64,000 bases of DNA from an uncultured Eubacteriales bacterium (GTDB taxonomy: Bacteria; Bacillota; Clostridia; Christensenellales; Aristaeellaceae): contig ONJM01000009.1 of NCBI GenBank assembly GCA_900318145.1, positions 1 through 64,000 on the forward strand. The letters are read 5' to 3'. Position numbers and translations under genes: made by a program. Numbering within the stretch: position 1 is the stretch's first letter; each line of letters begins with the position of its first letter. The notes under the pieces are model-generated. The model searched no databases. It was not told the origin of the DNA and saw only the letters and a program-made list of their open reading frames with translations. Below are positions 27,997 to 43,205 of this stretch, one piece after another.

Positions 27997-28200
27997 ATGG
28001 CCAAACTGACCATTGACCGGGAGACCTGCAAGGGCTGCGGTCTGTGCGCCGACGTTTGTCCCAAACATCTGCTGGCCCTCAGCCGGGAGATTAACGCCAA
28101 AGGATATCATCCCATCGGTATCGAGCAGCAGGATCAGTGCATCGGCTGCGCTTTCTGCGCACGGATGTGCCCCGACGCTGTCATTAAGGTTGAAAAGTAA
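27997..28200 (+). CDS. 2-oxoacid:ferredoxin oxidoreductase delta subunit (2x[4Fe-4S])
   Basis: 67 aa. It is nearly all ferredoxin: CKGCGLCADVCP at the N-terminal end and CIGCAFCARMCP near the C-terminus bind two [4Fe-4S] clusters that carry electrons from the TPP site to external ferredoxin. It is the first gene of a four-gene operon (delta, alpha, beta, gamma) with AAGGAGG before the ATG. This gene order is typical for the KorDABC/Vor type in clostridia. Confidence 0.9.
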   Translation: MAKLTIDRETCKGCGLCADVCPKHLLALSREINAKGYHPIGIEQQDQCIGCAFCARMCPDAVIKVEK

Positions 28201-28215
28201 GGAGGAAGCGTATCC

Positions 28216-29292
<1,077 letters not shown>

Positions 29293-29294
29293 GC

Positions 29295-30032
<738 letters not shown>

Positions 30033-30035
30033 TCC

Positions 30036-30572
30036 ATGGAAGCTCAATTCCTGATTGCAGGTTTCGGCGGGCAGGGCGTACTGCTGATCGGCCAGCTGCT
30101 GGCCAAGGCTGCCATGCACGAGGGCATGAACGTATCCTGGATGCCTTCCTACGGCCCGGAAATGCGCGGCGGTGAAGCCAACTGCGCCGTGGTGATCTCC
30201 GACGAGCCCATCGGTTCCCCGCTGGTCACGGAGATCCCGATCGCCGTCATCATGAACAAGCCCAGCATGATCAAGTTCACGCCCGCGATGGAAAAGGGCG
30301 GCATCATGCTCTACAACTCCTCCCTCATCGATATCAAGCCCGACCGGGATGACATCACCGCCATTCCTGTGGACTGCAACGGTATCGCCGAGGCGCTGGG
30401 CAACGCCCGCACGGCCAACATGGTCATGCTCGGCGCCATCCTGAAGAAGACCGGCGTGGTCTCCATCGATTCCGCCATGGAAGCGCTGAAAGCCACCTTC
30501 GGTCCCAAAAAAGAGCACCTGCTTCCCATCAACCGCCAGGCCATGGAAAAAGGACAGGAAGCTGTCGGTTAA
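30036..30572 (+). CDS. 2-oxoacid:ferredoxin oxidoreductase gamma subunit
   Basis: 178 aa of the POR/IOR gamma fold: GFGGQGVLLIGQLLAKAA at the N-terminus and YGPEMRGGEANC are signature segments, and the domain binds the CoA end of the substrate. It completes the four-subunit enzyme. It is followed by a clear terminator. A second, unrelated gamma-like protein (IorB) occurs at 57.7 kb. Confidence 0.9.
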   Translation: MEAQFLIAGFGGQGVLLIGQLLAKAAMHEGMNVSWMPSYGPEMRGGEANCAVVISDEPIGSPLVTEIPIAVIMNKPSMIKFTPAMEKGGIMLYNSSLIDIKPDRDDITAIPVDCNGIAEALGNARTANMVMLGAILKKTGVVSIDSAMEALKATFGPKKEHLLPINRQAMEKGQEAVG

Positions 30573-31198: not shown

Positions 31199-32959
31199 TT
31201 ATTTGATATATTCCAGCGCGCTTTCCGCCGCGATCCGCCCGAAAATCACGATGTCGGCCACAGCGTTGCCGCCCAGGCGGTTGCCGCCGTGTACGCCGCC
31301 GGTCACCTCGCCCGCCGCGAACAGCCCGGGAATGGCTTTCCCTTCCGTATTGATCACCTGCGCCGCGGTGTTGATCTTCACGCCGCCCATCGTATGATGG
31401 ATGCCGGGAGCGATCTTAATCGCGTAATACGGCGCGGCGGTCAGGTCCGCGTCCATGCCGGTGGTCCGCCCGAAGTCAGGATCCCGCTGGTCCTTGACAT
31501 ATCCGTTCCAGTCGTTCAGCGTCTTCGCCAGCGTCGCGGGATCGATCCCCAGCTGTTCCGCCAGGCCTTCGATGGTGTCCGCCTGCACGGTGATTCCGGA
31601 CTTCACGTACTTTTCAATGGCCTTCAGGTGGTCCCGCAGGTTCTGGTCAAAGATGATGTAGGCATACTGCCCTTCCTGCTCCAGCTCCGCGGCGGATACC
31701 GCGTCGCGGGTCAGCAGCTCGTTGGTAAAGCGCACGCCGCCCTGGTTCACCAGGATCGCGCCGTCGCCGCGCACGGATTCCGTGATCAGGATAGAGGTTG
31801 TCTGTTCCACCGTGGGATGCAGCTGGATCTGCTCGATGTCCACAAGATCCGCGCCGAGAGCCTGCGCCATGACGATGCCGTCCCCCGTCGCGCCGGGAGC
31901 GTTGGTCGTCACCGTTCCCTTCAGATCCGGGCGGTACTGGGTGTACATTTCCTCGTTCGCGCCGAAGCCGCCCGTCGCCAGGATAACCGCCCTGCAGTTG
32001 AAGGTGTAACTGGCGTCTTCGCCTTCCGCCTTCACGCCGCAGATTTTCCCTTCGCCGTCCGTAATCAGCTCCGTGGCCGTCGTGTTGTACAGGATCTCCA
32101 CACCCAGCTCGTTCAGCTTGGCGGAGAAATGATCCACCAGATAGCCGCCCACGCCGGAGCCGTCCTCCGGCGCGTGGATCCGGTTCACGGAAGCGCCGCC
32201 GGAATAGGAAATCTTCGGCAGGGACGCGTCGATGGTGTCCAGCCAGTCGATCGCCTCCGCGGATTTGTTCGCCATCACGGCTACCAGCGCCGGATCGTTC
32301 AGCGCGTGGCCGCCCTTCATGGTGTCCGCCGCGAACAGGGCCGTGGAGTCCTCAATTCCCTGCTCCTTCTGATAATGGGTTTCCGCGGCGTTCATGCCGC
32401 CGGTCGCCTTGGTAGTATTGCCGCCGGCGTAGGGCATTTTCTCCAGCAGGACAAAATCCTTCCCCGCCTGGTGCAGCATGATGGCGGCCGTCATTCCGGC
32501 GCCGCCCGCGCCGATAATCACGATCTCCGTATCAACCGTTTTTTCTCCCTTCGGGACATCCTCCCCGCCCTTGTCCCAGCGGTTCGCGTCCAGCGCGCCG
32601 ATATCCGCGCCGGCCGCTTTCAGCGCTTCCGTGGCCGCCTGGATGATCGCGTTGCTGGTAATTGTCGCGCCGCTGATGGCGTCCACATTCGGCGTCTGCG
32701 CCTGCAGAATGGCCGCGGACAGCTTGCCGGCTGCCATGCCGCCCAGTTCGGGCGTCTCGCCGGACGGATCGATGATCACGCTTGTGATCCGGTTCCCGCT
32801 GACCGTGATCTGCACCTTCACGGGCGAGAAAATTCCCTGCGCCTCGGCGGTATAGGTGCCCGGAGTGAACATTGTCTCCGCCGGAGCGGTTTCCGCAAGG
32901 GCAGCGGCGCTGAAAAGCGCCAGCGTAATGGCAAGGAACAGGCAAATCAGTTTTTTCAT
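31199..32959 (-). CDS. Secreted flavoreductase: FMN_bind domain fused to fumarate-reductase-like FAD domain
   Basis: 586 aa from the ATG at 32959 (AGGAGG upstream); the longer frame starts inside the promoter. A signal peptide (about 1-22, ends ALA). Residues 30-112 are an FMN_bind domain with the attachment motif SGATITS (T99 would carry FMN through ApbE). From about 146 the fumarate reductase/urocanate reductase-type FAD domain starts with EIVIIGAGGAGMTAA and continues with the capping domain. The C-terminal HHTMGGVKI and GGNRLGGNAV are family-typical. No haem motif. It likely receives electrons from flavin/Rnf routes and reduces an unknown extracytosolic acceptor (fumarate, urocanate or other enoate). 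It has its own promoter. Confidence 0.87.
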   Translation of the reverse strand: MKKLICLFLAITLALFSAAALAETAPAETMFTPGTYTAEAQGIFSPVKVQITVSGNRITSVIIDPSGETPELGGMAAGKLSAAILQAQTPNVDAISGATITSNAIIQAATEALKAAGADIGALDANRWDKGGEDVPKGEKTVDTEIVIIGAGGAGMTAAIMLHQAGKDFVLLEKMPYAGGNTTKATGGMNAAETHYQKEQGIEDSTALFAADTMKGGHALNDPALVAVMANKSAEAIDWLDTIDASLPKISYSGGASVNRIHAPEDGSGVGGYLVDHFSAKLNELGVEILYNTTATELITDGEGKICGVKAEGEDASYTFNCRAVILATGGFGANEEMYTQYRPDLKGTVTTNAPGATGDGIVMAQALGADLVDIEQIQLHPTVEQTTSILITESVRGDGAILVNQGGVRFTNELLTRDAVSAAELEQEGQYAYIIFDQNLRDHLKAIEKYVKSGITVQADTIEGLAEQLGIDPATLAKTLNDWNGYVKDQRDPDFGRTTGMDADLTAAPYYAIKIAPGIHHTMGGVKINTAAQVINTEGKAIPGLFAAGEVTGGVHGGNRLGGNAVADIVIFGRIAAESALEYIK

Positions 32960-33011
32960 GGGGTCCTCCTGTCTGTCGTATCGTTTCGTATGGGGTTGTC
33001 CTTCTGTTACC

Positions 33012-33040
33012 ATTATATCCCAGTTTCAGACCTCGCGCAA
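33012..33040 (-). promoter_or_regulatory. Promoter for the flavoreductase gene
   Basis: On the minus strand TTGCGC (33035-33040), 17-nt spacer, TATAAT (33012-33017). It separates this gene from the rnf-nrf-res transcript. Confidence 0.8.
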
Positions 33041-33079: not shown

Positions 33080-33895
33080 TCAGGCGTAGCTGTGTATGCC
33101 GGGCAGGAAGGTATTCACGCCGATATAAGTGAAAATCACGCAGACGAAACCCGCTACGGCAAAGATTGCCGCCGCGCGTCCCTTCCACCCCCTGCGCAGC
33201 CGCAGATGCAGGTATACCGCGTAGATAATCCATGTCACCAGCGACCAGGTTTCCTTCGGATCCCAGCTCCAGTAGCTTCCCCAGGCGCGTTCCGCCCAGA
33301 TCGCCCCCGTCAGGATCGTCAGCGTCAGAAACAGCAGTCCCAGGCATACGCTGCGGTAGGAGATAACGTCCAGCTTGCTTTCCTCCGGAATATGCTGATC
33401 CAGGAATCCGCCTTCCTTCACCTTTCTCCGCAGCAGGAAAATCGCTCCAAGCGCCGCGCTTACCCCGAAGGAACCGTAGGCAATGATCGCTGTGGAAACA
33501 TGAAACGCCAGCCATCCGCTCTGCAGCGCGGGCATCAGCGGCCGGATATCCCGGTTCTGCATTGCCGCGTATCCCATAATCAGGAAAACAATCGGCATCG
33601 CGAACACGCCCAGCACCGGAAAGCGGTATTTCCGGATGAAAACCAGGCTGACGCCCGCCAGCGCCCACGCGAAGCACGTGGCAAACTCGTACTGGTTCGT
33701 CATGGGCAGCCGTTCCGCCGCGATTCCGCGCAGCACCAGCGCCGCGGTATGCAGGAGCAGGGCCGCGGCCTGCAGAATTTCCCCGGCTTTTTCCATCCGG
33801 TTCTTTTTCAGCGCGACAAAGAGAAAATAGCATGCCATTGACAGGAAGTATCCGATCATCGTGACTGTAAAAAGAATGTTCTCAGCGTTCTGCAT
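33080..33895 (-). CDS. ccsA: Cytochrome c synthase subunit CcsA/ResC (System II)
   Basis: 271 aa with about eight membrane helices. The haem-handling WWD motif is present as AWGSYWSWDPKETWS near residues 207-221, and flanking His residues (HTAALVL, FHVSTAII, HLRLR) fit the haem-ligand positions. With ResB it moves haem across the membrane and attaches it to CXXCH/CXXCK sites. It overlaps resB by 14 nt. The only client in the window is the pentaheme protein encoded just upstream, which makes a dedicated assembly role likely. Confidence 0.92.
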   Translation of the reverse strand: MQNAENILFTVTMIGYFLSMACYFLFVALKKNRMEKAGEILQAAALLLHTAALVLRGIAAERLPMTNQYEFATCFAWALAGVSLVFIRKYRFPVLGVFAMPIVFLIMGYAAMQNRDIRPLMPALQSGWLAFHVSTAIIAYGSFGVSAALGAIFLLRRKVKEGGFLDQHIPEESKLDVISYRSVCLGLLFLTLTILTGAIWAERAWGSYWSWDPKETWSLVTWIIYAVYLHLRLRRGWKGRAAAIFAVAGFVCVIFTYIGVNTFLPGIHSYA

Positions 33896-35147
33896 TGTGT
33901 TCCCCCTTTTCCGCTGCTTCCGCCGCTTCCGTCAGCTGTTCCTTCATCAGTGCCTGCCCCTTCCGGCAGCGGCCCCGGAGAATCCATTTCCCGTCCGCTC
34001 CCCGCACCGCCCAGAGCGCCTTCGGCTGCAGCAGGAACGCCAGCGCCAGTCCGCAAAGCGTGATCATTCCGCCCGCCAGCGCCAGCGGCGCGAACCGGTC
34101 CCGCCGCGCCACCAGCAGCGTGAACGCCGCCGGCGTCATCTCCACCGTATCCTCACCCAGATCCATGGAGCCTTCCCCGAGGAAATAGAAGCTCCGCTCC
34201 GGCTCTCTGTTCCGGTACAGGTCAAAGTAGTAAATATTTTCCGCGTCTTCCCCCTGCGCCCGCTGAATTCCCGCGAAATAGAAGGCGTATTCCGGCTGGC
34301 TTTCCAGTCCCATCACACTGTCCATGCCCTGCTGCGGCAGCAACGTCTTCCGCTGCAGTGTCTTTCCGTCCCGGATCACCGCGACGGAAACCGCGGTGCC
34401 CGTATTGTTCTGGTACAGGCGGAATCCGCCGGCGTCCGCCGGATTGTTCACGCTGACCTCTTTTTTTTCCGTCTTCCCCGTTTCCGGATCCCGGATCGTG
34501 ATCTCTGTCACATACTGGGCGATACTCGTGTCTTCCCGCGTTTCCGTCCGGAAATCCTCCACCGTGATTTCCAGCCCGGTTTCCGGCATAATCCGGGTAT
34601 CTCCCGGAATTCCCCAGATCACGGTTTCCCGCAGGGTAGCCTGCCCCAGCGCGAAGCCTGCGATCAGCAGCAGCACACCCACATGGCAGACCCAGGCGCC
34701 CCAGTGGCCGATCCGGTTCCGGCTGGCGTACAGCGCCTCGGCGCCGTCCTCCGCCGCGCATTTTTCCGGTGTCATGCCCAGCGCGGCAAAAACCGCTTCC
34801 GGATGCTCCGTCTCCGTTTCCCCCAGATCACCCGCCGTCCGGATTGCGGCCGCCGCGTCTTTTTCCTGCCTGTACCGGTGCAGGAAGGCCGGAAAGCGGA
34901 TGACGCTGCACAGGATCAGGTTCAGGCACAGAAAACCGCTCAGCGCGATAAACCAGACGCTGTGGTAGGCGTCATTCACCTGCAGCGCCATGATCAGGGA
35001 TGCGGCGCCTTCCCCGTAGCGGGCGGTATACGCCTCCCGGGACAAGCCCTGTTCCACCAGCGAACTCAGCGCGCAGGCCGCCGCCAGCAGCACCAGCAGC
35101 GCCACCGCGAACCCCATGGAGGAGAGAAATCTCCAGACTTTCTTCAT
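33882..35147 (-). CDS. resB: Cytochrome c biogenesis protein ResB (System II)
   Basis: 421 aa. Three N-terminal hydrophobic segments (SSMGFAVALLVLLAAACALSS and neighbours), a large extracytosolic domain (about 170-345) and a last helix near 355-380 (APLALAGGMITLCGLALAFLL). This is the ResB/Ccs1 pattern. It works with CcsA to keep haem and apocytochrome Cys reduced and to ligate them. It follows the pentaheme gene with an 80-nt gap that holds a hairpin, and it overlaps ccsA. Confidence 0.9.
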   Translation of the reverse strand: MKKVWRFLSSMGFAVALLVLLAAACALSSLVEQGLSREAYTARYGEGAASLIMALQVNDAYHSVWFIALSGFLCLNLILCSVIRFPAFLHRYRQEKDAAAAIRTAGDLGETETEHPEAVFAALGMTPEKCAAEDGAEALYASRNRIGHWGAWVCHVGVLLLIAGFALGQATLRETVIWGIPGDTRIMPETGLEITVEDFRTETREDTSIAQYVTEITIRDPETGKTEKKEVSVNNPADAGGFRLYQNNTGTAVSVAVIRDGKTLQRKTLLPQQGMDSVMGLESQPEYAFYFAGIQRAQGEDAENIYYFDLYRNREPERSFYFLGEGSMDLGEDTVEMTPAAFTLLVARRDRFAPLALAGGMITLCGLALAFLLQPKALWAVRGADGKWILRGRCRKGQALMKEQLTEAAEAAEKGEHNAER

Positions 35148-35227: not shown

Positions 35228-38185
35228 TTATTTGCCGACCTTCTCCAGAATTTCCACAACGGCTTCCTTCACGGCGTCCGTGGAAATCGTCGCCCTGGCC
35301 ACCGCGTCAATCTCAGCGCTCTGATTTGCCACGACTGCCTTTGCCCAGGCTGTTTCGTTTTCATCCGTCACGAGATCCGTCTGCCCCTCCTTCGCTTCGC
35401 AGAGGATTTTGCAGTCCGTGATCTTTCCGTCCTTCGCCGCGGCAATCACCCGGATCACGCTGAAGGGCGTTTCCCGTCTGGCCAGGTAGCCTCCGTAAAC
35501 CGTTCCGCCCTGTTCCGCTTTTTCTTCCGCCTTCGCGGGCTCCTCCGCGGATTTTTCCTCCGCGGCGGGTTCGCCGCCGATCTTCTCCAGAATCTCCGCG
35601 ACGGCTTCCTTCACGGCGTCCGTGGAAATCGTCGCCCCGGCCACCGCGTCAATCTCAGCGCTCTGATTTGCCACGACTGCCGTTGCCCAGGCCGCTTCGT
35701 TTTCATCCGTCACGAGATCGGTCTGCCCTTCCTTCGCTTCGCAGAGGATTTTGCAGTCCGTGATCTTTCCGTCCTTCGCCGCGGCGATCACCCGGATCAC
35801 GCTGAAGGGTGTTTCCCGTCTGGCTAGGTAGCCCCCGTAAACCGTTCCGCCCTGTTCCGCTTTTTCTTCCGCCTTCGCGGACTCCTCCGCGGGTTTTTCC
35901 TCCGCGGCGGGTTCTTCCGGAGCGGGCTGCTCCGCCATGGCCGTTTCGCCGCTGATCTGCCGCAGGATGTCCGCCACGGCTTCCTGTACGGCGCCGGCGG
36001 AATACTTCAGCGTCGCACCGGTGATGGCATCGGTATCCGCCGTCTGGTTTTCCACGATGGCTTTCGCCCACGCCGTCCGGATTTCCTCTGTCAGGTAATC
36101 GTTCTCCCCCTCGGATGTAATCCGGCAGTCCGTGATTTTCCCGTCCTTTGTGCCGGCGAACACCCGGATCACGCTGAAGTCCGTTTCCTTCTCAGCCAGA
36201 TAGCTTCCGTAAACCGTTCCGCCCTGTTCCGCTTTTTCTTCAGTCTTCGCGGGCTCCTCCGCGGGTTTTTCTTCCGCCGCGGGTTCTTCCGCCGCGGGCT
36301 CCGCGCCGCCGATCTGCCGCAGGATCTCCGCCACGGCTTCCTGCACGGCGCCGGCGGAGTACTGCAGCGTCGCGCCGGTAATGGCATCGGTATCCGCCGT
36401 CTGGTTTTCCACGATGGCTTTCGCCCACGCCGTCCGGATTTCCTCTGTCAGATAGTCGTTCTCCCCCTCGGATGTAATCCGGCAGTCCGTGATTTTCCCG
36501 TCCTTTGTGCCGGCGAACACCCGGATCACGCTGAAGTTCGTTTCCTTCTCTGCCAGATAGCTTCCGTAAACCGTTCCGCCCTGTTCCGCTTTATCTTCGG
36601 TCTTCGCGGGCTCCTCCGCGGGTTTTTCCTCCTCGGAGGGTTCTTCCGCGGGTTTTTCTTCCGCCGCGGGCTCCGCGCCGCCGAGCAGTCCGTTCACCGC
36701 CTTCAGCACAGCGTTGGAGGTAACCGTCGCGCCGCTCAGCGCGTCGATTCCGTTTTCACCGTAGGTGAAAGGCCCGGCCTTTCCGACAAACTGGTCCGTA
36801 AACGCCGCTTCGGAAGCCCGCTGGCCCAGTCCGACCGTTTCGTCCGGCGTTTCAACCGCCAGGGTCTGTACCGTTCCGTCTTCGTTCAGCGTAAGCTTTA
36901 CTGTCACCGCGCCGCCGAATCCCTGCTCAGCCGCGGTCAGGACTCCTTCCGCTTCCGGTTCCGGTTCCGTGCTTTCGGGAGCTTCCCCGGTCAGCAGCGC
37001 CATCGCTTCGGCAATCTTTTCATCCGCGGTGTCCAGGCAGCGGAGCGAAAGTTTCGAATTGTGGGCGCCTTCGGAATTCTCCACATAGCAGAAATCAAAG
37101 AACCACTGGGCTTCCCGGTGCAGCTTGCGCAGCGCGTCCAGCTCCTCTTCCGTGAGGTTCCCTTCCGAAACCGCCGCTGTCAGCGCGTCCTTCAGTCCGC
37201 TCAGCCGGTTGCCGGTTTCGGTTTCCCGGGCAGTTACCTTTTCCTGCGTCGAGGTCACCAGCGTCCTTGCCGCGTCAGCGCTGCCGTGGCAGGCCGCGCA
37301 GGTCGCCATCAGCGTTTCGCTCTGCAGCGGGCTCACCAGGTAATGGCTGTGGTAGGTGCTCCCGTCTTCCGCGGTTTCCTCTGCCATATGGCAGCTGGCA
37401 CAGTTCAGACCCATGTTCGCGTGGGCGCTGTAGAGGAAGGTTTCCATCTCGGGATGCTGTGCCTTCAGCATGGGCGTCCCCGTTCCGGGCTGTTCCCAGT
37501 CTTTGAAGCCCATTTCGTCATAGTACGCCAGGATGGCTTCCGGCGTCATTTCTTCCCTGCTGCTGTACGGCATCATGGTTTCGCCGTCTTCCGGCGTAAA
37601 GTAATACTCGATATGGCACTGGCCGCAGTTCAGCACCTTCGGATCGATGGCGGAAGCGTTCTCTCCCAGCGCTTTTTCCACATAGCTGTGGGTGATCACG
37701 ATCTGGCCGTTGTTCCCTTTGTCGTCCCCGTGGCAGCTGTAGCAGGAAATCGCCTGCGTCATCTGCTCCATGACTTCATCAAAGGGCCGGGTATAGACCT
37801 CCACGCCTTCCTTGTTCACCATCTTGGTGAAGTCCGGCGTCTTGCAGGTAATGCACTGGGCCTTCGCGTGGGGCCGCTCCGTCTTGGAGACGTCCTCCAG
37901 CGTAAAGGAGTGGCCTCTCGCCGCCTTGTAATCCTTGGCGAATCCGTATCCCTCGTAGATGTTCACCAGATATGGATCCTGCTTCAGGTAATCCTCCGCC
38001 GCGCTGTTTTCCGCGTTCTGCCCCATGGTCACCGTGATGCCTTCCATCATGGGGGTCAGCGGTTCCTTCACCTGATAGGTCATGGGCTTGCTGCCGATAA
38101 CGCCCGTCAGGAACAGCACCGCGATGATCAGCGCGATCAGGCTCAGGCCGATCCGGGTCCACTGCTTTCTCTTGAACTCGTTCAT
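35228..38185 (-). CDS. NrfA-type pentaheme nitrite reductase fused to five FMN-binding domains
   Basis: 985 aa from the ATG at 38185 (GAGGGGAG upstream; a GTG six codons earlier is less likely). One N-terminal membrane anchor (about 11-31) with no clear cleavage site. Residues 50-400 are NrfA: haem sites CITCK (111-115, the Lys-ligated active haem), CYSCH (148-152), CGQCH (187-191), CASCH (262-266) and CAACH (296-300), plus RGHSF, IEYYF (catalytic Tyr, Ca site) and KAQHPE (catalytic His). Residues 414-503 are an FMN_bind domain (SGAT at 484-487). Four further FMN_bind-like repeats follow at about 539-627, 658-746, 782-870 and 896-985 with TGAT, TGAT, AGAT and a broken ARAT, joined by Pro/Glu/Ala linkers. 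Likely a self-contained extracytosolic flavin-to-nitrite electron path. No NrfH partner is seen. Confidence 0.92.
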   Translation of the reverse strand: MNEFKRKQWTRIGLSLIALIIAVLFLTGVIGSKPMTYQVKEPLTPMMEGITVTMGQNAENSAAEDYLKQDPYLVNIYEGYGFAKDYKAARGHSFTLEDVSKTERPHAKAQCITCKTPDFTKMVNKEGVEVYTRPFDEVMEQMTQAISCYSCHGDDKGNNGQIVITHSYVEKALGENASAIDPKVLNCGQCHIEYYFTPEDGETMMPYSSREEMTPEAILAYYDEMGFKDWEQPGTGTPMLKAQHPEMETFLYSAHANMGLNCASCHMAEETAEDGSTYHSHYLVSPLQSETLMATCAACHGSADAARTLVTSTQEKVTARETETGNRLSGLKDALTAAVSEGNLTEEELDALRKLHREAQWFFDFCYVENSEGAHNSKLSLRCLDTADEKIAEAMALLTGEAPESTEPEPEAEGVLTAAEQGFGGAVTVKLTLNEDGTVQTLAVETPDETVGLGQRASEAAFTDQFVGKAGPFTYGENGIDALSGATVTSNAVLKAVNGLLGGAEPAAEEKPAEEPSEEEKPAEEPAKTEDKAEQGGTVYGSYLAEKETNFSVIRVFAGTKDGKITDCRITSEGENDYLTEEIRTAWAKAIVENQTADTDAITGATLQYSAGAVQEAVAEILRQIGGAEPAAEEPAAEEKPAEEPAKTEEKAEQGGTVYGSYLAEKETDFSVIRVFAGTKDGKITDCRITSEGENDYLTEEIRTAWAKAIVENQTADTDAITGATLKYSAGAVQEAVADILRQISGETAMAEQPAPEEPAAEEKPAEESAKAEEKAEQGGTVYGGYLARRETPFSVIRVIAAAKDGKITDCKILCEAKEGQTDLVTDENEAAWATAVVANQSAEIDAVAGATISTDAVKEAVAEILEKIGGEPAAEEKSAEEPAKAEEKAEQGGTVYGGYLARRETPFSVIRVIAAAKDGKITDCKILCEAKEGQTDLVTDENETAWAKAVVANQSAEIDAVARATISTDAVKEAVVEILEKVGK
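35231..36571 (-). repeat. Tandem coding repeats: four FMN-domain-plus-linker units
   Basis: Units 2 and 3 of the fusion protein (about 36571-36305 and 36214-35948) are almost identical at both DNA and protein level with a 357-nt period. Units 4 and 5 (about 35842-35576 and 35500-35231) are almost identical with a 342-nt period. The two pairs differ clearly from each other, which implies an old duplication followed by two recent ones. Confidence 0.9.
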
Positions 38186-38204: not shown

Positions 38205-38996
38205 TCATCCTGCCGGGGTAATGACTTTCACCGGGCACTTGGCCGCGCACTTGCCGCACAGCGTGCACTTTTCGGGATTCACCCGGGCCAGCGTCCCGTC
38301 AAACTCGATGGCTTCAGACTCGCACTGCTTCGCGCACAGGCCGCAGCCGATGCAGCCCGCCGCGCAGACCTTCTTTACCTGCGGGCCCCGATCCCTGTTG
38401 GAGCACTGCACCCGTACGATCCGGCTTTCCGGGATCAGGGAGATCAGTCCCCGCGGGCATACTTTCGCGCACAGGCCGCAGCTCACGCACCGGTTCCGGT
38501 TCACAACCGCGACGCCGTTCTGAATGCTGATCGCCTGTTCCGGACAGACCTCGGCGCAGCTGCCGAAGCCCAGGCATCCGTAATTGCAGTCCGTCACATT
38601 CATGCCGGAGAGCACCGCGGCGCGGCAGTCCTTCACACCGATGTAGTTTCCCTGGTTCTTCGTTACTTCGCAGGTACCCTTGCAGGCCACGAACGCCGTC
38701 TTCCGCTCCAGGGCGCCGGCGGTGGTTCCCATAATGTCACCAATGGCCTGCGCCACAGGCGCGCCGCCTACCGGGCAGGCGTTCACCGGGGCTTCCCCCC
38801 GGGAAATGGCACCGGCCAGCGCGTCGCACCCGGCGTATCCGCAGGCGCCGCAGTTATTTCCGGGCAGCTTCTCGCGGACCGCGACTTCCCTTTCGTCCAC
38901 TTCCACGGCAAATTTCTTTCCCATGAAAACCAGTCCCGCCGCCACCACGACGCCGATCACGGCAATTACCAGGGTCGTAATCCAGATAATATCCAT
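38205..38996 (-). CDS. rnfB: Rnf complex subunit B (ferredoxin-interacting Fe-S subunit)
   Basis: 263 aa. An N-terminal membrane helix (about 4-24), then the CGACGYAGC four-Cys cluster near 48-56, and four ferredoxin-like motifs (CLGFGSCAEVCP, CVSCGLCAKVCP, CIGCGLCAKQCE, CTLCGKCAAKCP). It takes electrons from reduced ferredoxin at the start of Rnf. It follows rnfA by 13 nt and is 19 nt before the nrfA-FMN start, so the cytochrome fusion is in the same operon. Confidence 0.95.
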   Translation of the reverse strand: MDIIWITTLVIAVIGVVVAAGLVFMGKKFAVEVDEREVAVREKLPGNNCGACGYAGCDALAGAISRGEAPVNACPVGGAPVAQAIGDIMGTTAGALERKTAFVACKGTCEVTKNQGNYIGVKDCRAAVLSGMNVTDCNYGCLGFGSCAEVCPEQAISIQNGVAVVNRNRCVSCGLCAKVCPRGLISLIPESRIVRVQCSNRDRGPQVKKVCAAGCIGCGLCAKQCESEAIEFDGTLARVNPEKCTLCGKCAAKCPVKVITPAG

Positions 38997-39009: not shown

Positions 39010-39588
39010 TTACAGCGTCAGCCCGCCGAAGCCCATGAAAGCGATGGACATCAGCGCGGCGGCGATCATCACGATGGGGGCTCCCCGCAGGGGCGCCGGA
39101 AGATCCTTTTCGTTGATCCGGCTGCGGATCCCTGCCAGCAGGACGATGGCGATGGTATAGCCCACGGCGGTTCCGAAGCCGCTGGCCACGCACTGGATAA
39201 AGTTGTAGCCGTCCTGCACGTTGTTCAGCGCCACGCCCAGCACCGCGCAGTTGGTGGTGATCAGCGGCAGGTAGATGCCCAGCGCGTTGTACACGGCCGG
39301 GGATTTTTTCTTCAGGAACATCTCGACGATCTGCACCAGCGCCGCGATAACCAGAATGAAGATAATCGTTTTCATGAAATCCATTCCCAGGGGCTGCAGC
39401 ACATAATCGTACAGCAGGCTGGCCACCGCCGAGGCGATGGTGATAACGAAGATCACCGCGCCGCCCAGGCTGATGGAAGCCTTCATCTGTTTGCTCACGC
39501 CCAGGAAGGAGCAGATGCCCAGGAACTGGTTCAGCACCACGTTGTTGATCAGCGCCCCGGCGATGATAATCATAATCAGGCTTTTCAC
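39010..39588 (-). CDS. rnfA: Rnf complex subunit A (integral membrane)
   Basis: 192 aa with six membrane helices. It is typical RnfA: VLNQFLGICSFLG near the N-terminus and CAVLGVALNN after the third helix, each with the conserved Cys thought to share a membrane [2Fe-2S] with RnfE. It overlaps rnfE by 4 nt. Confidence 0.95.
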   Translation of the reverse strand: MKSLIMIIIAGALINNVVLNQFLGICSFLGVSKQMKASISLGGAVIFVITIASAVASLLYDYVLQPLGMDFMKTIIFILVIAALVQIVEMFLKKKSPAVYNALGIYLPLITTNCAVLGVALNNVQDGYNFIQCVASGFGTAVGYTIAIVLLAGIRSRINEKDLPAPLRGAPIVMIAAALMSIAFMGFGGLTL

Positions 39589-40319
39589 TTCTGCGCTCCT
39601 CCCTTCTCCTCAGCCTTCGCCGCCGGTTCGGCCTTCACGGCTTTTTCCGCCGGCTTCGTTCCGCAGTCCGCAGCGGTGGCGCACAGCGCGCAGTTCCCGT
39701 CGCAGCCGCTCTCCACCAGCTTCCGCTGGCGCGTCTTGATGCCGACAGCGTTCAGGATCGCGATCATCAGCGCGAACACCAGGAACGCTCCCGGAGGCTG
39801 GATGAAAATCGTCATTCCGAAGCCTTCCGGCAGCAGCTGCGCGCCGAAAACCTTGCCCGTTCCGAGAATTTCCCGGATCGCGCCGGCCAGGGTCAGTGCC
39901 GCCGTGAATCCCAGGCCCATTCCGATTCCGTCCATCACGGACAGCATCGGCGTATGCTTGTTGGCGTAGGCTTCCGCCCGGCCCAGGATGATGCAGTTCA
40001 CAACAATCAGGGGAATATAGATGCCCAGCTCCTCATACAGGGCAGGCAGGTATGCCTTGATCAGCAGCTCCGTCACCGTCACCAGGCTCGCCACGATCAC
40101 GATGTAGGCGGGCAGGCGGACCTGATCCGGAATCACTTTCCGCAGGCAGCTGATGACCAGGTTGCTCAGCACCAGCACCGCCAGCGTACTCAGGCCCATG
40201 CCGATGCCGTTGGCCGCCTGGGTGGAGACCGCCAGCGCCGGGCACATGCCCAGCATCAGCACCAGCACCGGGTTTTCTTTCACCAGTCCGTTCCAGAGGC
40301 GTTCCAGATAACCTTTCAT
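39585..40319 (-). CDS. rnfE: Rnf complex subunit E with Cys-rich C-terminal extension
   Basis: 244 aa with six helices. NPVLVLMLGMCPALAV and VVNCIILGRAEA are RnfE signatures. After the last helix, a ~50-residue tail contains C206, C210, C213 and C219 (pattern CxxxCxxCxxxxxC) and then an Ala/Glu/Lys-rich stretch. The tail would lie on the cytoplasmic or membrane-surface side and might bind a metal or Fe-S cluster. It overlaps rnfA and precedes it. Confidence 0.94.
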   Translation of the reverse strand: MKGYLERLWNGLVKENPVLVLMLGMCPALAVSTQAANGIGMGLSTLAVLVLSNLVISCLRKVIPDQVRLPAYIVIVASLVTVTELLIKAYLPALYEELGIYIPLIVVNCIILGRAEAYANKHTPMLSVMDGIGMGLGFTAALTLAGAIREILGTGKVFGAQLLPEGFGMTIFIQPPGAFLVFALMIAILNAVGIKTRQRKLVESGCDGNCALCATAADCGTKPAEKAVKAEPAAKAEEKGGAQK

Positions 40320-40320
40320 G

Positions 40321-41859
40321 TCAGTTGCCTCCTTTCAGCACCGTCTCATAGAGATCCAGGCCGGCGTTCACCGCGCTGATCACGGCGTTGGAGGTCACGG
40401 ACGCGCCTGTGATGGCGCTGATCTCCTGCTCTCCGGAGGCGGCTCCCTTTACCAGCGTCAGCTGTCCGCTCTTTCCGGCGAACTGATCCCTGAAGGCCGG
40501 CTCCGCCGCCTTCATTCCAAGTCCTGCGGTCTCGTTCAGTTCCGTAAAGGAAATGCCGGTAATCTGTCCTTCCTTCGTCAGCCCCAGCGCCAGCGTCACA
40601 TCTCCGCCGAATCCCTTGGAGGAGATATTCAGGGCATATCCGATCGTGTTCCCGGCCTTGTCTTTCGCGATGTATGCCTCGTTGACACGGGTCGTCTTTC
40701 CTTCCCCTGCCTTTATGGTTTCCGCCGCTTCCTCCGCCGCGGCAAAGGAATCCGCGTCCGCGCATACGGCCTTGTAGGCTTCCGTCTTCTTGGCCAGCTC
40801 CTGCGCGTCGATGGCTTCCTTCGTCACGGAGAAAACGCCGCTCAGCGCCAGTCCGGCCAGCGCGGCGATCAGCGTCAGCGCGATCACCGGCTTCGGGATC
40901 CGGAAAGGCTCCCGTTTCACGCGGCGGGTCTTTCCGATCTTCCGGTATGCCAGCGGCTTCTGCACAATGTAGGTATCGATCAGGGGCGTGCACACGTTGC
41001 CGATGATGATGGCATAGCTGAAGGAGTCCGCCGTGTTGCCCCACAGCCGGAAGATTCCGCCCAGCACGCCGATCAGGCAGCCGTAGATGAACTGTCCCAG
41101 CCGGCTCACCGGGCTGGTCACATAGTCCGTCGCCATGAAGAAAGCGCCCATCACCACGCCGCCGCCGCACAGGTGCGCCAGCAGGAAGCGGGGTTCAAAG
41201 CCCTGTCCGCCGAACAGGCCGATCAGCAGCGTGAAGCCGATCAGCACGCTGAAGCAGATCTGCCCGTGGATGATATCCAGGCTCCACAGCAGCAGCCCGC
41301 CGGCCAGCAGCGCCAGGATGGATCCGCCGATGACGCCGTCCGCCGTGCCCAGGAACATCTTCGTGATATCCACCTGTTCGAAGGCCTTCAGGGCGCCCAC
41401 CGGCGTGGCGGACGCCACCGCGTCCACCGCCGGCTTGATCGCCATCGCGTTCGCAAAGGAGATCAGCAGGAAGCATCTCGCCGCCAGGGCGGGATTGATG
41501 AAGTTCTTGCCCAACCCGCCGAAGCAGCCCTTGCAAACCACAATGGCGAACACGGAGCCGATGACGGGAAGATACAGGGGCGTCCGCGGCCCCAGGGAAA
41601 GCGCCAGCAGCAGACCGGTGATGGCCGCGCTGCCGTCCCAGATGGTGTCCGGTTTATGGCAGATTTTGTTGAACGCCCATTCGCTGGCCACCGCGCTTAC
41701 CACGCCCAGCGCCACGATGCCGAAGGCCTGCCATCCGTTCACCAGGATGCCGACCGCCGTCGCCGGCAGGAGGCTCAGCAGCACCATCCGCATGATGTAT
41801 GGAGTCGTCCATCTGTCCCGCGTATGGGGGGCAGAAGAAAGGTTCAGTACGCCGTTCAT
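40321..41859 (-). CDS. rnfDG: Fused RnfD-RnfG protein
   Basis: 512 aa. Residues 1-320 are RnfD, with its membrane helices and the covalent-FMN segment DAVASATPVG (T152). A basic linker and one helix (about 328-348, ALTLIAALAGLALSG) lead into RnfG: the FMN_bind domain ends with ITGASVTSN (T484-S487). In most bacteria RnfD and RnfG are separate genes. RnfG's acceptor here would be Ser487 rather than Thr. It overlaps rnfC by 4 nt and abuts rnfE. Fusion supported by one uninterrupted frame. Confidence 0.92.
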   Translation of the reverse strand: MNGVLNLSSAPHTRDRWTTPYIMRMVLLSLLPATAVGILVNGWQAFGIVALGVVSAVASEWAFNKICHKPDTIWDGSAAITGLLLALSLGPRTPLYLPVIGSVFAIVVCKGCFGGLGKNFINPALAARCFLLISFANAMAIKPAVDAVASATPVGALKAFEQVDITKMFLGTADGVIGGSILALLAGGLLLWSLDIIHGQICFSVLIGFTLLIGLFGGQGFEPRFLLAHLCGGGVVMGAFFMATDYVTSPVSRLGQFIYGCLIGVLGGIFRLWGNTADSFSYAIIIGNVCTPLIDTYIVQKPLAYRKIGKTRRVKREPFRIPKPVIALTLIAALAGLALSGVFSVTKEAIDAQELAKKTEAYKAVCADADSFAAAEEAAETIKAGEGKTTRVNEAYIAKDKAGNTIGYALNISSKGFGGDVTLALGLTKEGQITGISFTELNETAGLGMKAAEPAFRDQFAGKSGQLTLVKGAASGEQEISAITGASVTSNAVISAVNAGLDLYETVLKGGN

Positions 41860-43205
41860 TTCTGGCCGCCTCCTTCACGCTTTTTCTTTTCCAGGATTTC
41901 GGCCTTCGCCTGCTTGAACGTCTGCATCAGCGGGCGCTTCGCGGGGCAGGCCACCGTGCAGCTGCCGCACTGGATGCATTCCAGGCCGTAGAGTTTCTTT
42001 TCATACCGGGTCAGATCCCCGGCGATCGCGGCGTCCGCCATCAGCTGGGGCATCAGCCCCACGGGGCAGACCGTTGTGCACCGGCCGCAGTGCAGGCACG
42101 CGGTCAGCAGCTTCTCCGCCTGTTCAACAGGGTCCTCCGCCAGCAGCGTCAGCCCGTTGTTCTGCTTCTGCACCGGCACGTCCAGGCTGCCCATCGCGAC
42201 GCCCATCATCGGTCCGCCGGCCAGCGCCTTCACCGCTGTCATGCCTTCCTTCACGCCGCCGCAGGCTTCCAGCAGCTCGGCGTAGCTCGTGCCCACCCGC
42301 ACAAAGAAGTTCGCGGGTTCCTTTACCGCCTCGCCCGTCAGGGTGAAGCACTGGCTGAACAGCGGCTCGTGGTACAGAACCGCCCGCTGCACCGCGTACA
42401 GGGTTCCGACGTTCTGCACGATGCATCCCACGTCCGCCGGCAGCTTGCTGATCGGGAAATCGATTCCGGTCACCGCCTGGATCAGGCTGCGCTCGCCGCC
42501 CTGGGGATACTTGGTGATCATCGTATGTACGCTGATCCGCGGCTTTCCGCTCGCGGCGATCTCCATCGCGTGAATGGCTTCAGGCTTGTTGTCCTCGATG
42601 CAGACGATGCCTTCCGCGTTCGGGAAAAGCTTCAGCACCAGCTCCAGCCCTTCAATGATGGCCGGCGCGTGGGTGCGCATCAGCTGGTCGTTGCAGGTCA
42701 GGTACGGCTCGCATTCCGCGCCGTTGGCGATCACGTATTCAATCGCGTCCGGATCCTTCGGCTTCAGCTTCACATGGGTGGGGAACCCGGCGCCGCCCAA
42801 TCCGACAACGCCCGCGTCCTGTACCCGCTGGAGGATTTCGTTCGCGGACAGATCCCCCGAGTTGTCGCGCACCGAGTAATCCGCCGCCGGTGTAAACTGG
42901 CCGTCGTTGTCAATCACGATGCATTCCGCCATTCCGCCGCCCAGCACCCGCCGCTTCTCAATGGCCTTTACCGTGCCGGAGCAGCTGCTGGTGATATGCG
43001 CGGAAACGAAGCCGTCCGCCTCTGCGATCCGCTGGCCGGCCAGAACCGTATCCCCCTTCCGGACGATCGGTTTCGCGGGCTTTCCGATATGCTGCTGCAG
43101 GGGAAACACCATTTCCCCCTTTGGATCGTACAGGCGCAGCCGCACGTCCCGGCTCAGATCCTTATGCTCTGCCGGATGAACGCCGCCGCGAAAAGTGTTT
43201 CTCAC
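41856..43205 (-). CDS. rnfC: Rnf complex subunit C (NADH-binding)
   Basis: 449 aa. An N-terminal barrel-sandwich domain (PIVRKGDTVLAGQRI), then an NADH/FMN-binding NuoF-like domain with GLGGAGFPTHVKL (about 135-147), an SLBB segment and two C-terminal [4Fe-4S] motifs (CLHCGRCTTVCP and CIQCGSCTVACP). It reduces NAD+ with electrons from the membrane part (or the reverse) and is first in the operon. AAAGGAGT lies upstream of the ATG. Confidence 0.95.
   Translation of the reverse strand: MRNTFRGGVHPAEHKDLSRDVRLRLYDPKGEMVFPLQQHIGKPAKPIVRKGDTVLAGQRIAEADGFVSAHITSSCSGTVKAIEKRRVLGGGMAECIVIDNDGQFTPAADYSVRDNSGDLSANEILQRVQDAGVVGLGGAGFPTHVKLKPKDPDAIEYVIANGAECEPYLTCNDQLMRTHAPAIIEGLELVLKLFPNAEGIVCIEDNKPEAIHAMEIAASGKPRISVHTMITKYPQGGERSLIQAVTGIDFPISKLPADVGCIVQNVGTLYAVQRAVLYHEPLFSQCFTLTGEAVKEPANFFVRVGTSYAELLEACGGVKEGMTAVKALAGGPMMGVAMGSLDVPVQKQNNGLTLLAEDPVEQAEKLLTACLHCGRCTTVCPVGLMPQLMADAAIAGDLTRYEKKLYGLECIQCGSCTVACPAKRPLMQTFKQAKAEILEKKKREGGGQK

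Follow-up and report, generated by a model that had tools for sequence, protein, structure and literature searches.

The window analysed here (64,000 nucleotides; positions 1 to 64,000 of contig ONJM01000009.1, GenBank assembly GCA_900318145.1) derives from an uncultured bacterium of the family Aristaeellaceae, related to ruminant-gut Clostridia, and harbors on its minus strand a single frame that joins a pentahaem cytochrome of the NrfA type to an array of FMN_bind domains. The placement of this fusion inside an Rnf gene set suggests a nitrite respiration that operates without quinones or the usual partner proteins. The fusion gene and its domains are as follows:

35228..38185, minus strand: fusion gene, 985 aa (predicted N-terminal membrane anchor, NrfA pentahaem domain, five FMN_bind domains)
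36986..38011, minus strand: NrfA domain by Pfam profile (Cytochrom_C552, PF02335), residues 59-400, CXXCK at residues 111-115
36686..36922, minus strand: FMN_bind domain F1, RnfG-like type, motif DALSGAT
36266..36553, minus strand: FMN_bind domain F2, motif DAITGAT, 93% identical to F3
35906..36196, minus strand: FMN_bind domain F3, motif DAITGAT
35573..35845, minus strand: FMN_bind domain F4, motif DAVAGAT, 93% identical to F5
35231..35509, minus strand: FMN_bind domain F5, degenerate motif DAVARAT

The frame runs from an ATG at 38185 to a stop at 35228 with zero internal stops, and begins with a hydrophobic helix (residues 2-28) that by its make-up appears to be a membrane anchor. The NrfA domain scored 269 bits against a curated Pfam cut-off of 24.1, and stayed below the cut-offs of the NCBIfam NrfA models (PRK11125, 219 of 595; TIGR03152, 186 of 692). 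Its haem motifs are one CXXCK (CITCK) and four CXXCH (CYSCH, CGQCH, CASCH and CAACH), and in an alignment of 35 rows (the fusion protein and 34 relatives) K115, Y194, K241, Q243 and H244 are unchanged, while R90 is near-invariant (absent from three Eggerthellaceae rows). The second-sphere catalytic Arg, Tyr and His, whose active-site roles in NrfA are treated in section 4 of a recent review (PMC12285233), are hence kept as R90, Y194 and H244 (R90 and Y194 picked by reading the alignment); the counterpart of H244 in PDB 4wjy, an entry titled E. coli NrfA H264N, is Asn. The closest solved structures by sequence are NrfAs (including 3ubr, 1gu6 and 1fs7), and NrfA structures also topped a Foldseek search with the AlphaFold model (2rdz: E 1.9e-16, TM 0.70 on target). 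This model of the full fusion protein (mean pLDDT 67.5, pTM 0.49) is adequate for the NrfA fold and the FMN beads and useless for the placement of the beads on NrfA. The Pfam score, the motifs and the alignment thus bear out the first-pass annotation, which had read a complete NrfA (five haem sites including CXXCK, Tyr and His kept) from the letters of the window, and we infer that the head is an ammonia-forming nitrite reductase, with nitrite as its putative substrate.

The five FMN_bind domains noted earlier, four of them with GAT-type motifs (F1 to F4), were likewise recovered: the Pfam FMN_bind profile scored 141 bits on the fusion protein against a cut-off of 22, distributed over five stretches (E up to 1 each) that are separated by Pro/Ala/Glu-rich linkers. 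With respect to the attachment motif D-x-x-[S/T]-G-A-[S/T], three of the five domains are canonical, one has Ala in place of Ser/Thr (F4) and one is degenerate (F5). The 93% identity within each of the pairs F2/F3 and F4/F5 suggests that the array grew through recent duplication or conversion. In comparison with the nearest relative (L005), dN/dS by the Nei-Gojobori method was approximately 0.07 for NrfA, 0.3 for F1, 0.2-0.3 for F2, 0.3-0.5 for F3 and 0.3-0.4 for F4 and F5, the copies F2-F5 being not strictly paired between the two proteins. The predicted FMN bead resembles domain 1 of CbFMN4 (8p2b; TM 0.71-0.72 on target, but Foldseek E 0.3-0.5). Covalent loading of the array with FMN by ApbE is predicted; the genome of the window (G000) encodes one ApbE (G000:C61, 279 bits against a cut-off of 25.6), and within the 18 fused NrfA proteins described below 57 of 59 FMN domains retain the FMN-accepting Ser/Thr (31 with the canonical motif), one of the two exceptions being located at a contig end.

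As the window originates from a genome in 63 contigs with 88% completeness, its fusion could in principle be an artefact in which two genes were merged by an assembly or sequencing error. We rejected this explanation, which we regard as exceedingly improbable, on the grounds of purifying selection and of NrfA-FMN fusions in three genomes of one or two contigs (G091, G132 and G500, the fusions lying on contigs of 3.26-3.41 Mb); furthermore, 18 fused open reading frames (ORFs) occur in several layouts, and the nearest relative L005 shares the NrfA-then-FMN order. The NrfA survey comprised 101 ORFs in 100 loci (the window, 79 loci among those matching peptide patterns of the fusion protein, and 20 further loci), two of the ORFs being pieces of one broken gene (L083); the pattern-found loci are a non-random sample, with record titles mostly from ruminant gut. 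Same-frame FMN_bind domains were present in 18 of the 101 ORFs (the broken-frame L045 left out) and, in addition, in G500, and Pfam confirmed all seven fused examples that were submitted (L114, L115, L011, L005, L117, L015 and L040). The array follows NrfA in the window, L005 and the contig-cut L006, flanks it on both sides in L007, L009, L010, L011 and L115, and only precedes it in L014, L015 and L117-L121 (L121 cut); in L040 and L114 one chain has the layout FMN_bind-FAD reductase-NrfA, and the cut L075 has an incomplete layout. Within the genus of the window (g1), all six genomes with NrfA (G000, G066, G091, G112, G132 and G500) carry it in open frames of 984-1153 aa, while G026 and G149 had no NrfA match. 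A maximum-likelihood tree of 100 NrfA rows (18 fused, 78 plain, 4 not scorable) placed the fused rows in one group of 19 (SH-aLRT 94; it includes the non-scorable L012 and L045) plus L040, which lies elsewhere on the tree; this amounts to at least two changes, and a single origin of the FMN fusion was not rejected by the AU test (p-AU 0.454). In a plasmid search 18 records matched, none over more than 80% of the query; among the five listed, four were annotated E. coli nrfA and one was unannotated.

Three side observations concern the frames themselves. Two complete NrfA domains with ten haem motifs share one 817-aa frame in L027:9746-12196, which could be either a genuine tandem or a duplication introduced during metagenome assembly. 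RnfB and NrfA occupy one 707-aa frame in L053:11567-13687, with a membrane-anchor-like stretch between them (either a natural fusion or a lost stop). In L117:8330-11143, L118:8744-11305 and L120:8824-11049 a coiled-coil-like stretch and KYMRPRP-type repeats, variable in number among these relatives (frames 742 to 938 aa), separate the FMN domains from NrfA.

The genes surrounding the fusion gene in the window are:

41856..43205, minus strand: rnfC (TIGR01945, 481 bits, cut-off 246)
40321..41859, minus strand: rnfD-rnfG fusion, a single frame of 512 aa (TIGR01946 with 226 bits, PF03116 and PF04205 over cut-off)
39585..40319, minus strand: rnfE (TIGR01948 over cut-off)
39010..39588, minus strand: rnfA (TIGR01943 over cut-off)
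38205..38996, minus strand: rnfB (TIGR01944, 88.9 bits, cut-off 68.7)
33882..35147, minus strand: resB-like gene of system II cytochrome c maturation (PF05140, over cut-off with 154.5 bits)
33080..33895, minus strand: ccsA/ccsB-type maturation gene, system II (PF01578 over cut-off; TIGR03144, 262 bits, over cut-off)
31199..33013, minus strand: FMN_bind and FAD_binding_2 flavoprotein reductase, flavocytochrome c / fumarate-reductase type

Rnf subunits A, B, C, D and E all exceeded their subfamily cut-offs and G was recognized under PF04205 only (TIGR01947 gave 95.8 bits, slightly under its cut-off of 102), so that all six subunits of RnfABCDGE are present. The fusion protein is not the RnfG of this complex: it reached only 69.3 of 205 and 48.5 of 102 bits on RnfG models, and the RnfG domain resides in RnfD-G. 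The fusion gene starts 19 bases after the end of rnfB. The resB-like gene had zero NCBIfam matches at 1e-10. The reductase gene that follows ccsA encodes a product scoring 592.5 on the NCBIfam flavocytochrome c model (cut-off 542) and 81% identical (475 of 587 residues) to the module that is fused to NrfA in L114 (genome G091); this identity, together with the same three-part fusion in L040, suggests a second reductase tied to the same electron feed. On the plus strand, a ferredoxin gene and genes for three core subunits of a 2-oxoacid:ferredoxin oxidoreductase (27997-30572) converge on the operon and are a possible source of its ferredoxin; a short ferredoxin-like frame was also observed after ccsA in L009, L010, L011, L075, L115 and L151.

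The gene order rnfC-rnfDG-rnfE-rnfA-rnfB-nrfA-resB-ccsA proved to be conserved. Among loci with at least 6 kb upstream, Rnf linkage was found at 59 of 61 in the NrfA clade of the window versus none of 14 in two other NrfA clades (L125-L131 and L133, eight loci; L076-L080 and L082, six loci), which substantiates the earlier proposal of Rnf as the electron source. Most NrfAs of the clade are plain proteins of about 430 aa, yet are located behind rnfB, mostly directly (interrupted or gapped in L026, L034 (FMN-FAD reductase gene), L114 (four-FMN protein) and L122). A script detected all five rnf genes upstream at 57 of the 75 loci whose upstream sequence extends for at least 6 kb. Among the 18 loci that it missed, rnfB is in fact present at L013 and L053, where its frame is overlapping or merged, and L124 carries rnf genes downstream on the same strand. 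Within the same family, the loci L125-L133 form another NrfA clade, organized as a three-gene unit (nrfA-resB-ccsA) with no rnf alongside; at five of these nine loci no donor gene was conspicuous among the neighbours. At L114:7693-8730 (G091) ResB has a reduced length of 346 aa and its match is split into two stretches that overlap; it may have lost a loop or be damaged.

In 150 genomes sampled from the family, NrfA (match E below 1e-90) was detected in 33, and ResB exceeded its cut-off in exactly these 33 carriers (G010 had a sub-threshold ResB match and no NrfA). The NrfA of 20 carriers is of the clade type (identity at least 56%; next 48%), and all 20 have an RnfD match whose frame is no shorter than 517 aa, which we took as the RnfD-G fusion (domains confirmed in a subset of loci). 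The long RnfD and nrfA share one contig in 17 of the 20, and are found on separate contigs in G016, G018 and G062. An FMN fusion occurs in ten of the clade-type carriers (G000, G016, G066, G086, G091, G108, G112, G128, G132 and G146); of the other ten, nine have a plain NrfA (among them G121, plain in L116 despite a long frame) and G018 is contig-cut. In G000, G066, G091, G112 and G132 no RnfD other than the fused one was detected, and RnfD is unfused in G026 and G149, which belong to the same genus and are without NrfA. Among the other 130 genomes (frames of at least 480 aa checked), RnfD-G or RnfD-FMN_bind frames were found in at least three (G036, G098 and, shorter, G002).

Further long RnfD frames (G025, G084 and G013) were considered as D-G fusions and rejected after a domain check. 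In G025 (L152:7881-10661) RnfD is unfused, and a 927-aa RnfG frame has seven further FMN_bind matches, the array thus being carried by RnfG and not by NrfA; in G084 (L153:4711-6609) and G013 (L154:5159-6625) a single frame holds two RnfD matches with some 120-190 residues between them, reflecting a long insertion in the middle of RnfD.

With regard to alternative donors, the NrfH/NapC family (PF03264) was found in none of the 150 genomes, E. coli being the only positive among 14 controls (NrfB and NrfCD were not searched genome-wide). PF14522, as a probe for other multihaem cytochromes in G000, G091, G132 and G500, matched only NrfA, in a weak test that left NrfA below the cut-off and missed that of G500. 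The quinone prenyltransferase UbiA/MenA was absent from G000, G066, G091 and G132 (control positive 14 of 14), and exceeded its cut-off in 8 of the 150 genomes. Other menaquinone markers over cut-off were PF02621 (19 of 150) and menD (1 of 150), and G000 had no MqnA-family match; as PF02621 and menD matches were mostly weak or sub-threshold, UbiA is the better quinone marker. Since G000 is 88% complete, single absences there are weak, and G091 and G132 weigh more for UbiA and PF03264. Taken together, the operon linkage, the absence of the NrfH/NapC family, the correspondence of ResB to NrfA and the RnfD-G fusion in 20 of 20 carriers make Rnf the likely electron feed of this NrfA.

These data also bear on the alternative that the NrfA end detoxifies nitrite, hydroxylamine or NO, the Rnf electrons being incidental and no energy being conserved. 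It would fit with the lack of a detectable molybdopterin-family oxidoreductase in G000, with the restriction of NrfA to 33 of the 150 genomes (as for an accessory function) and with the ability of the RnfD-G variant to exist without nrfA; nevertheless, we deem it unlikely, given that five genomes of the genus have nrfA within the operon of their sole detected RnfD, and that a special RnfD-G variant accompanies this NrfA type in every carrier.

The role of the array is constrained by its distribution. Of the 84 rows of the Rnf-linked NrfA clade, 62 are without an FMN domain on NrfA (18 fused, 4 not scorable), so that in most cases Rnf must be enough with no FMN domain on NrfA, which makes the array an elaboration; the initial proposal that flavins replace NrfH as the feed was consequently abandoned. 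The related proposal of a path from Rnf through flavin to nitrite survives in part: Rnf as the source and the lack of NrfH/NapC agree with it, whereas the occurrence of the array before, after or on both sides of NrfA argues against one fixed linear wire. This variable position, together with its absence in most relatives, indicates that the array is probably a flexible relay or reservoir. Alternatively, array and NrfA could form an outward extracellular electron conduit, in which NrfA or RnfG feeds the flavins and these feed external acceptors, nitrite not being the main substrate. The free-end position of the array in the window protein, literature proposals that multi-flavinylated proteins behave like multihaem wires, and a weak structural match to OcwA (PDB title: outer cell wall cytochrome) are compatible with such a conduit. 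We find it improbable to a high degree, as CXXCK and the catalytic Tyr and His are invariant (Arg nearly so) in the 35 aligned rows, dN/dS of NrfA is below that of the FMN domains, nitrite reductases are the top fold matches, and most homologues of the clade lack the array altogether.

On this basis, we propose that the fusion protein is a membrane-anchored, extracytosolic, ammonia-forming nitrite reductase of a dedicated Rnf variant, fed by Rnf and equipped with an optional FMN array, a reading to which we assign a probability of roughly 60%. Several observations weigh against it. At the level of the protein, the attachment motif of F5 is degenerate, and the array sits at the free C-terminus, beyond NrfA from the anchor, where it is ill-suited to act as a simple wire from Rnf to NrfA. 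The RnfG attachment motif is without its Asp (Ser, Asn or Glu instead) in 9 of 9 rows of the group of the window (the window, L005, L006, L007, L009, L010, L011, L114 and L115), while at least 51 of 62 rows outside this group keep it (the motif of L061 and L064 is DTMSGATVT); replacement of this Asp by Ala is reported to have a minor effect. At the level of the clade, most NrfAs have no FMN domains, and L057 shows nrfA-resB-ccsA with no rnf in view. Across the family, NrfA belongs to a different type in 13 of its 33 carriers, and the eight of their loci with at least 6 kb upstream have no adjacent rnf, so that NrfA is not always paired with Rnf; conversely, the RnfD-G variant occurs without nrfA in G098 (full operon seen), G036 (contig ends) and G002 (shorter form). 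The G098 operon (L147) is of the RnfD-G type without nrfA, resB and ccsA, which indicates that the Rnf variant can exist alone. As for quinones and substrate supply, UbiA is present in two other members of the genus, including G112, which carries NrfA; menD matches in G000 below threshold (163.6 bits, cut-off 244.2), and no molybdopterin-family oxidoreductase was detected in that genome, so that nitrite would have to be supplied externally.

The fold and motifs, the operon, the co-occurrence and the lack of NrfH-family or UbiA matches are computed results, whereas cofactor loading, direction of electron flow, substrate and ion pumping are inferred. Reduced ferredoxin would donate to RnfB, and RnfA/E would move the electrons through the membrane to the FMN bound covalently in the RnfD-RnfG fusion, with ions being pumped; instead of, or besides, taking the RnfC route to NAD+, electrons would exit on the outside, and RnfG, whose FMN faces outward, would pass them directly, or via the beads of the FMN array, to the NrfA haem chain for the six-electron reduction of nitrite to ammonium. 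ResB and CcsA would attach the haems and ApbE the flavins, and the neighbouring FMN-FAD reductase may act as a second terminal reductase on the same Rnf feed. On its flexible linkers, the array would function as an optional relay or reservoir, in which about four flavins could hold eight electrons as against the six needed. The nitrite/ammonium couple lies at about +340 mV. The potential measured for one multi-FMN protein (-184 mV; PMC10339131) falls between this value and that of ferredoxin (-420 mV; PMC12174285), and the inner steps follow the known Rnf path (ferredoxin, RnfB, the [2Fe-2S] of RnfA/E, FMN of RnfG; PMC12174285). NrfA haems 4 and 5 are thought to store electrons (PMC12285233, section 4), a store that the flavin array would enlarge.

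In broader terms, we tentatively suggest, at somewhat less than even odds, that in gut and rumen Clostridia a specialised Rnf with RnfD-G in one chain passes electrons outward to a haem reductase, in a nitrite respiration that is driven by ferredoxin and independent of quinones. In one lineage FMN beads would have become an electron store within a modular hub, joining reductase heads of the haem (nitrite) and FAD (fumarate-type) kinds to one ion pump, in some cases within the same polypeptide. The redox partners of NrfA named in the part of PMC12285233 available to us all draw on the quinol pool; a ferredoxin/Rnf-fed NrfA would, if real, directly link nitrite ammonification to ion pumping in organisms that yielded no quinone prenyltransferase match. 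It would further explain nitrite as an electron sink for cytochrome-poor gut and rumen Clostridia (with a bearing on nitrate feeding and ruminant methane), and multi-flavin proteins, whose role has been called enigmatic, would gain a concrete partner and a measurable reaction.

Among known systems, NrfHA and NrfABCD share with the window the NrfA domain, the five haem motifs including CXXCK and the catalytic residues, and NrfHA shares also the system II maturation genes; in contrast to them, the NrfA of the window lies in an Rnf operon and is fused to FMN_bind domains, and the search of 150 genomes revealed no NrfH/NapC-family donor. The 2025 review (PMC12285233) lists NrfH, CymA and NrfB as redox partners, and the words Rnf and flavin do not occur in the portion available to us; likewise, nrfA is reported from the rumen (PMC12918512 and PMC10811737) with no link to Rnf in the accessible parts. 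Neither an NrfA-FMN fusion nor an Rnf-NrfA operon appeared in the titles or abstract beginnings of the open-library papers listed, the nearest being a sentence on Christensenellales in a 2021 survey (PMC8238504; legend of Fig. 6H, section 18), which describes multi-flavinylated RnfGs with a multi-heme cytochrome domain. These proteins, which combine multiple FMN_bind domains with a multihaem domain and are encoded in an RNF cluster, probably have the same or a sister architecture as the fusion of the window, so that the architecture is not entirely new. In the survey the protein is treated as RnfG and NrfA is unnamed (the text seen has no NrfA, NrfH or c552, and mentions nitrite twice, in passages on NirS in NapH-like clusters), whereas the window has RnfG as a separate domain, joined to RnfD, and a complete NrfA as the haem part. 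CbFMN4 and SaFMN3 are FMN_bind beads with ApbE motifs, as in the array of the window; unlike the fusion, they are described in the available part of PMC10339131 as without a haem domain and of unknown role. In the FMN_bind fumarate/urocanate reductases of the flavocytochrome c family, to which the gene at 31199..33013 belongs, FMN_bind links a terminal reductase to the membrane (PMC8238504, as far as available); the catalytic head of the fusion is by contrast the haem protein NrfA, and L040 and L114 carry both heads. Lastly, MmcA of Methanosarcina acetivorans is a multihaem c cytochrome that is encoded in an Rnf operon and takes Rnf electrons outside the membrane (PMC11024163). This archaeal protein is heptahaem, related to tetrathionate reductase (OTR), delivers to methanophenazine or external acceptors, and has no FMN domains mentioned in the part of that paper available to us, whereas the window protein, with five haem motifs and an NrfA profile, is not of this OTR-related type; as an analogue, MmcA may serve as a precedent for a multihaem cytochrome fed by Rnf.

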